From Gammaproteobacteria bacterium (GTDB lineage Bacteria > Pseudomonadota > Gammaproteobacteria > Steroidobacterales > Steroidobacteraceae): a stretch of 64,000 nt of DNA. The stretch spans positions 62,001 to 126,000 of the forward strand of contig JANYLH010000004.1 of assembly GCA_025357915.1 (NCBI GenBank), given 5' to 3'. The notes below the pieces were generated by a model. The model did no database searches, had not been told where the DNA came from, and was given only the letters and a program-made list of their open reading frames with translations. A program made the translations under genes and the position numbers. Of the stretch, positions 62,836 to 64,000 are shown piece after piece; within the stretch, counting starts at the first letter, position 1; the number at the start of each line of letters is the position of its first letter.

Positions 62836-63573
62836 ATGCGTATTGCTTTCGAACTCAGCGCGGAACCGCGGAATGATCAGGGCAAGGGTGCGAGCCGCCG
62901 CCTGCGTCATTCCGGCAAGGTTCCCGCCATTCTCTACGGCGCTCACGCGGAGCCGACCCGGCTCTCGCTCGAGCATCACAAACTGCTGGCTTTGGTGGCG
63001 GATGAGAAATTTTACTCATCGATCATCAGCGTCAGCGTCGGCGCTCAGAAGCAGCCGGTCATCGTCAAGGACGTGCAGATGCACCCGGCGCGCAACGCCG
63101 TCGTGCACGTCGACCTGCAGCGCGTCCTCGAGAACGAGAAGATCCGCCTGCACCTGCCGATTCACTTCAAGGGCGAAGCCGCGGCTCCGGGCATCAAGAC
63201 CCAGGGCGGCGTGGTATCGCACCACATGGCCGACATGGAAGTGGTCTGCCTGCCCAAGGACCTGCCCGAGTACATCGAGCTCGACCTGTCGGGCATGAAC
63301 CTCAACGATTCGCTGTACCTGAGCGACGTCAAGGTGCCCGCGGGCGTGACCATCTCGGCGCTTGCGCACGGCGCCAACCCGCCGGTGGTCTCGATCCATG
63401 CGCCGCGCGTCGCCGAACCGGAGCCGACTGCCGAAGCCGCCGCCACACCCGCCGAGGGCGCCGTGGCTGCTGCTCCTGCCGAGGGCGCCGCCGCTGCGGC
63501 TCCTGGCGCGAAGAAGGAGGAAGGCAAGAAGGAAGAGGGCAAGGACGCGAAGAAGGAGGGCGGGAAGAAGTAA
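62836..63573 (+). CDS. rplY: 50S ribosomal protein L25/Ctc family, long form
   Basis: 5S rRNA-binding ribosomal protein with the C-terminal TL5/CTC domain. The 245-residue product begins AFELSAEPRNDQGKGASRRL and has KVPAILYGAHAEPTRLSLEH (5S-binding domain). The beta domain has NLNDSLYLSDVKVPAGVTIS. The last 60 residues are a low-complexity Ala/Pro/Glu then Lys/Glu/Gly tail (KKEEGKKEEGKDAKKEGGKK), longer than usual. The ATG at 62836 follows AAGGAG. Confidence 0.95.
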   Translation: MRIAFELSAEPRNDQGKGASRRLRHSGKVPAILYGAHAEPTRLSLEHHKLLALVADEKFYSSIISVSVGAQKQPVIVKDVQMHPARNAVVHVDLQRVLENEKIRLHLPIHFKGEAAAPGIKTQGGVVSHHMADMEVVCLPKDLPEYIELDLSGMNLNDSLYLSDVKVPAGVTISALAHGANPPVVSIHAPRVAEPEPTAEAAATPAEGAVAAAPAEGAAAAAPGAKKEEGKKEEGKDAKKEGGKK

Positions 63574-63623
63574 CCGCCCGACGGCATGTGTGCGCCACTA
63601 CTGTGAGGCAGCGCGTCGTCACG

Positions 63624-63719
63624 CGGCATCATTCGCTGTCGGGAACGCCGTGAACCCGTCCATGGGGGCTCCGGCCGCGACATCCGTGTCGCGGACGGTC
63701 CCGACAGCGAATGATGCCG
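63624..63719. repeat. nested palindromic intergenic repeat element
   Basis: A perfect 21-base inverted repeat (arms 63624-63644 and 63699-63719, beginning CGGCATCATTCGCTG) encloses 54 bases. These contain a second perfect stem, CCGCGACA-TCCG-TGTCGCGG (63675-63694), whose TCCG loop is of the stable UNCG type. The enclosed GTGAACCCGTCCATGGGGGC resembles, from memory, intergenic repeats found in many copies in some gammaproteobacteria. Only one copy is in this window. No T-run follows, so it is not a classical terminator. Confidence 0.75.
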
Positions 63720-63810
63720 TGCGCCGACGCGCCGACTCACGGTCTGGGCCAGGCGCTACATTTATTGCGCGCTTGCTGCTTGCCCGCGGTGCGAATGGTG
63801 GTGGGCTCCT

Positions 63811-64000
63811 GTGACGGGACTTCCCCTGAAACTGGTCGTGGGGCTGGGAAATCCCGGGGCGGAGTACGCGCGCACCCGCCACAACGCCGGCTTCTGGTAC
63901 GTCGACGAACTGGCGCGCGCCGGGGGCGGCAACTGGCGGCGCGAGTCGCGCTACCAGTGCGAGCTCGCGCGCGTGAGCGTGGCCGGCCATGAGCTGTGGC
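63811..64000 (+). CDS. pth: peptidyl-tRNA hydrolase, 5' part only
   Basis: Recycles peptidyl-tRNA released by stalled ribosomes. Only the first 63 residues are in the window. [20 protein letters not shown] is the family N-terminal signature, with the conserved asparagine and the catalytic histidine in [13 protein letters not shown]. The start is GTG at 63811. Position after rplY matches the usual rplY-pth order. The gene runs off the right edge. Confidence 0.95.

Follow-up and report, generated by a model that had tools for sequence, protein, structure and literature searches.

CsrB/CsrC, RsmX/Y/Z and the RsmU RNA of Xanthomonas sequester CsrA and have in common that ANGGA is presented in hairpin hexaloops, with several sites on each RNA (PMC7652899, PMC7694677). 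RsmU is the 3′ UTR of a comEA gene (PMC7694677). The SELEX consensus for CsrA is given as RUACARGGAUGU and the RsmE site as an ANGGAN hexaloop, and most SELEX hairpins are described as having four or fewer contiguous pairs (PMC7652899). The TwoAYGGAY RNA (Rfam RF01731), which is predicted to bind CsrA (PMC4333381), is listed for human gut, gamma-Proteobacteria and Clostridiales (PMC2864571). At the level of DNA, REP sequences have stems of 5–13 bp (GTAG) or 8–9 bp (CGTC) (PMC3733652, table 1), and template switching in replication is described as making perfect stems and keeping them complementary by fold-back (PMC8794818). The element analysed here resembles TwoAYGGAY in having two hairpins with AYGGAY loops (PMC2864571). 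In contrast to the CsrA-sequestering RNAs, however, it is a dispersed palindromic repeat, with two putative sites per copy and a long locus-specific stem. TwoAYGGAY, for its part, is presented as a structured RNA and is not called an interspersed palindromic repeat in the descriptions cited (PMC2864571, PMC4333381).

The window, by which we mean the whole stretch of 64,000 nucleotides that was analysed, carries the element between rplY (50S ribosomal protein L25/Ctc; 62836–63573, plus strand; NCBIfam NF004130, 258 bits) and the start of pth (aminoacyl-tRNA hydrolase; 63811–64000, plus strand). The pth fragment of 63 aa matches TIGR00447 with 53 bits, under the whole-protein cut-off of 100, because the window ends within the gene. 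Two perfect arms of 21 bp, at 63624–63644 and 63699–63719, enclose 54 bases, exactly as the preliminary description had placed them. A repeat search extends the arms imperfectly to 48 nt each, with 63600–63647 being 85% complementary to 63696–63743. This is the sole perfect inverted repeat in the window with arms of at least 14 bp and a spacer of at most 150 bp; the longest arm in 100 first-order Markov surrogates was 16, and a length of 21 was reached in 0/100. Folding of 63615–63725 as RNA gave −72.9 kcal/mol (z = −6.95), which bears out the earlier claim of a long RNA hairpin.

The inner part of the palindrome holds two hairpins. The covariance model built for the element matches 63632–63711 on the minus strand, the folding strand according to the wobble test described below, with 79.5 bits. 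Hairpin 1 (63647–63669, minus strand), which had been overlooked in the first reading, runs GCC-CCC-AUGGAC-GGG-UUCAC-GGC by sequence and consensus structure, with the hexaloop AUGGAC at 63658–63663 and a conserved bulge in the consensus structure at 63650–63654. Hairpin 2 has the perfect 8-bp stem that was first noticed (63675–63682 and 63687–63694, found again by sequence and by repeat search). Its loop is TCCG on the plus strand (63683–63686) and, once the closing A-U pair is opened, ACGGAU on the minus strand (63682–63687). The conserved loops of both hairpins are better read on the strand opposite to the one first considered. No T-run directly follows either arm of the window copy on either side.

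The covariance model found three strong copies in the source genome (G000): the window copy, C35:23126–23205 (77.7 bits) and C35:23427–23506 (69.8 bits), with the next best match at only 17.2 bits. The core pattern was found in 22 of the 148 relatives, in 26 of 369 genomes sampled from the class and in 16 of 398 genomes from the phylum, every one of those 16 belonging to that class; a reversed control pattern gave zero matches among the genomes listed for each of the three sets. Bearing genomes contain between 1 and 268 copies by pattern, with the maximum in G408. An exact 26-base core was found in 118 stretches of a named genome collection, and the 80 matches listed include Xanthomonas, Stenotrophomonas, Lysobacter, Arenimonas, Alcanivorax, Alloalcanivorax, Parahaliea, Haliea, Marinobacter, Microbulbifer, Saccharospirillum and one Serratia, among others. 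These names point to Gammaproteobacteria as the class of the window. The element is an interspersed repeat confined to the window's class in the genomes sampled, and the suggested likeness to multicopy gammaproteobacterial intergenic repeats with a TGAACCC-TCCATGG core is upheld. A blastn search with the 111-bp unit found no match among plasmids or phages. One stretch among the viral contigs, and only one, contains the core pattern (L339 6229–6254). Elsewhere, five copies in the same orientation lie at a regular spacing of 227–229 bp (G701:C1:94448–95380).

Across 185 distinct copies, the core is mostly 52–53 nt long and the arms have a median length of 28 bp; the arm sequence differs from locus to locus, yet is self-complementary. 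An RNAalifold consensus was obtained from 76 of 100 candidate copies, the 24 left out being broken copies, array halves and copies with odd ends. It comprises the stem, a hairpin 2 of about 7 pairs and a hairpin 1 of the form GCC-NNC-loop-GNN-bulge UUYAC-GGC, and 20 of its 24 pairs show changes on both sides with the pair kept. The outer ends differ by lineage (in G408, G024 and Alcanivorax) while the core is constant.

Several variant arrangements were also seen. One genus (G108 and G121; L193–L197) has tandem arrays, with a period of 78–81 bp, of the hairpin 1 half and one arm, in which only the last unit is complete with hairpin 2 and the other arm, and in which GGA hairpins are multiplied on the folding strand. 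Several copies in G408 (L269–L308) are hybrids with another repeat containing CGCCATCCATGGCG, which also has an ATGGAT loop on one strand. Outside the window, two long ORFs on contig C76 of the source genome flank a large nested palindrome whose inverted ends are GTGAATGCGCCTATG (L030 1560–2100). It folds over approximately 300 nt, and the covariance model of the element gives no match there.

The strand whose folding is maintained was read from wobble mismatches in the arms of 152 copies with arms of at least 18 bp, leaving out the 33 of 185 with shorter arms, and with a pairing score that treated both wobble types alike. On the plus strand, A·C mismatches outnumber G·T by 172 to 26 and are spread over many columns. 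Since A·C and G·T on this strand are G·U and A·C on its complement, the complement is the strand whose folding is kept. The bias persists after thinning to arms less than 60% alike (62 versus 16 in 61 copies; 31 copies lean in one direction and 5 in the opposite one), although the accompanying p-values ignore shared ancestry. It is also seen within genera, at 25:3 in Stenotrophomonas, 33:2 in Xanthomonas and 20:0 in Parahaliea; the table of strand by genus, like that of partner counts below, covers 140 of 141 matches, the weakest being left out. Among the 21 copies from the window's own family and order, the bias is weak (20 versus 13). Judged from these substitutions, the folding strand is the complement of the window's plus strand, weakly so in the window's own family. 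RNA and single-stranded DNA gave no distinguishable signal in this test, and because single-stranded DNA would give the same bias, a REP-like life at the DNA level is the main rival to an RNA function.

On the folding strand, both window hexaloops read ANGGAY, namely ACGGAU in hairpin 2 and AUGGAC in hairpin 1, so that more than one ANGGA is carried in a hairpin hexaloop, as in CsrA/RsmA-binding RNAs. The constancy of the hairpin 1 loop proves nothing, since it was demanded by the search pattern. The GGA of hairpin 2 was not demanded, and it is present in 151 of 152 copies, more commonly than any other triplet. The preceding base varies freely (T 97, A 32, G 19, C 3), and this free position coincides exactly with the free position of the CsrA consensus. 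It follows that TCCG, which had been taken for a UNCG-type loop, is one state of a variable position: the base that makes it occurs in 3 of 151 copies, and it is the GGA of the opposite strand that is conserved. The sequence UACANGGAYGU is found in hairpin 1 of 19 of the 152 copies. Set against the four or fewer pairs of most SELEX hairpins, the 8-bp stem of hairpin 2 argues against an ideal CsrA site there.

The source genome has one CsrA gene. CsrA was found in 19 of 22 element-bearing relatives and in 105 of 126 others, shares so similar that the presence of CsrA does not discriminate between them; the three bearers in which it was not found have genomes that are 72–84% complete. In genome G024, where the pattern occurs 18 times, there are ten matches to CsrA (PF02599), far more than in the genomes listed beside it.

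We compared the element with known RNAs. The RF01731 model has no match in the window at E up to 10 and none in ten loci at the gathering score, and Rfam as a whole returned for the window (E up to 10) only microRNA, lncRNA and sRNA matches, all below gathering scores. RsmU was weighed as a known copy of the element; a search of 31 Xanthomonas and Stenotrophomonas loci showed no comEA-like motif, a result that does not settle identity. No paper was found that contains any of six 21-base forms of the core, and no description of the element was found in the literature searched, which lay mostly outside subscription journals; it may be in print elsewhere.

Among relatives, the rplY–pth gap was found filled, decayed or empty. 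G000, G013 and G004 carry the element (in G004 it adjoins a run of N), truncated remnants that start at the same left-arm end are found in G014 and G001, and it is absent from G002, G005, G006, G007, G008 and G011; G009 and G010 (short loci) and G003 and G012 (no rplY match) were left out. Between G000 and G013 the left arms agree at 27/30 positions and the right arms at 23/30, with pairing kept despite these changes at 27/30 and 25/30, respectively. The window copy was most likely already present in a common ancestor of this genome and part of the genus, with other species having decayed or lost theirs. With three copies in the genome, and with empty and decayed sites here, it is neither single nor conserved at this site in all relatives, the combination that the preliminary description had named as fatal to a repeat. 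The gap in G008 (L069) holds an unrelated perfect palindrome of approximately 31 bp.

The other two copies of the source genome lie inverted to each other between parE and parC (L029 2050–2510, equivalent to C35:23050–23510), where 553 bp separate the parE stop from the parC motif. In nine genomes with empty sites this distance is 68–136 bp and the genes overlap or lie close together. The element runs to contig ends at this site in G004 and G013, and the G012 contig ends one base past the parE stop. On the far side of the G000 insert lies an inverted copy of the parE 3′ end, with ~36 nt nearly identical and a weaker extension that reaches further into the gene. Comparing the last 60 nt of parE with the reverse complement of the next 900 nt gave 28 in G000 and 8–16 in the nine empty-site genomes. 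As the empty sites lack such a palindrome, the one in G000 arose at the time of the insertion or later and was not already in place.

Inverted sequence outside the arms is not limited to this case. Over 172 copies it reaches a 95th percentile of 26.8 and a maximum of 49, against a maximum of 20 in mispaired controls, and several unrelated copies (L120, L045, L057 and L108) have inverted host sequence ~15–17 nt beyond the arms. A general origin of the arms from host flanks was nevertheless cut back as a proposal: such outer inverted sequence is confined to a subset of copies, and within many genomes the same arms recur from copy to copy, so that host-flank fold-back does not hold in general.

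Our main reading, held tentatively at a probability of about 0.45, is that the element is a non-autonomous repeat of Gammaproteobacteria whose core would be kept as a putative CsrA/RsmA-binding RNA and whose arms may be renewed by fold-back. The folding (minus) strand of a copy would be transcribed by read-through or from a nearby promoter, and the two ANGGAY loops on that RNA would be held by a CsrA/RsmA dimer, each copy forming a small CsrA-binding site. CsrA binding would keep the core, while the outer ends, and hence perhaps the means of spreading, differ between lineages; mobility would be provided by borrowed enzymes. The arms would be made and kept complementary by fold-back copying (template switching) from the adjacent strand; in one copy this may have extended into parE. 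By comparison with template-switch hairpins as described (PMC8794818), fold-back would here act repeatedly, at many loci, beside one conserved mobile core. A bolder form, which we regard as doubtful, would make the element a class-wide mobile riboregulator whose core spreads CsrA/RsmA sites and, where it lands, grows its own stem by fold-back of host DNA, with up to hundreds of CsrA traps in a genome, each on a palindrome of its own that mends itself.

It is quite possible instead that the element is a REP/REPIN-like mobile element acting as single-stranded DNA, in which a transposase other than the classical RAYT recognises the two hairpins on one strand and the GGA is a recognition sequence with no RNA function. 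The strand asymmetry of the arms fits such a life equally, as do several features shared with REP/BIME/REPIN sequences: copies are intergenic, multicopy, able to fold and often in inverted pairs. A divergent partner lies within 450 bp, 5′ of the folding strand, in 78 of the 120 copies that have 600 bp of flank on each side, as in the inverted dimers of RAYT-mobilised REPs, and neighbouring pairs comprise 42 divergent, 7 convergent and 2 parallel. The window copy is single, and the copies in G408 are mostly single. The same reading would account for the lack of preference for gene orientation in G408, where 72 of 73 matches (the weakest left out) were placed in 40 stretches: 19 and 18 fall in the two co-directional classes, 13 are convergent, 9 divergent and 13 at edges. 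The balance of 19 to 18 does not suggest that copies act locus by locus in one direction. A replication-strand bias in G408, suspected from the first ten places listed, was rejected as an artefact of listing order.

Also in favour of a REP-like element, the core in G408 sits, by inspection, inside a unit of ~180 bp with the ends TATACC...GGTATA. These inverted ends recall a MITE, but the window copy and most genera have neither a common terminal repeat nor a target duplication that we could find, and it is the ends that are lineage-specific and the core that is common, the reverse of what an end-recognising transposase would leave. The free loop position, lying exactly where the CsrA consensus is free, also speaks against a purely DNA-level recognition sequence. 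Moreover, the stem, with its median of 28 bp and its two-hairpin tip in 185 copies, is unlike the short stems tabulated for REPs (PMC3733652). As for the stem feet, those listed were judged by eye; they vary from genus to genus, with neither GTAG nor CGTC throughout.

The enzyme expected of a REP is likewise not associated with the element. The Y1/RAYT transposase domain (PF01797) occurs in 18 of 44 genomes; it is absent from G000 and from the element-rich G108, G121, G024 and G152, and none of 30 Y1 loci examined contains the element. The suggestion of a non-autonomous mobile repeat stands; mobilisation by a RAYT/Y1 transposase is not supported, and the element is not a short REP hairpin.

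An improbable alternative is a plain structural hairpin, either a bidirectional terminator or a protector of mRNA 3′ ends, spread by drift. The length of the stem would suit this role, as would the paucity of copies between divergent genes: among 136 copies, 20 were at the edge of a locus, 12 fell within predicted ORFs, and the 104 that could be classed with a crude gene caller comprised 30 convergent, 65 co-directional and 9 divergent. Such a hairpin would not, however, explain conserved loops and a conserved bulge or the lack of orientation preference; the window copy has no T-run of an intrinsic terminator after either arm, and a terminator between the nearly touching parE and parC would cut the operon. 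Least probable of all is that the core lands in pre-existing palindromes such as terminator hairpins, the arms being two halves of the target, a proposal that would accommodate the inverted host sequence outside the arms at the four loci named above but not the empty parE–parC sites.

The element has consequences even if CsrA plays no part. It is widespread, Rfam matched none of the scanned loci at threshold, no description was found in the literature searched, and it breaks assemblies, with several contigs terminating within copies. Filled, decayed and empty sites within one genus also provide a natural series for how perfect palindromes arise at defined points. Under the reading that we favour, in which the loops serve as CsrA sites, part of a cell's CsrA-binding capacity would depend on how many copies of a selfish-looking repeat it holds, ranging from a few sites to more than five hundred (two loops on each of the 268 copies in G408).
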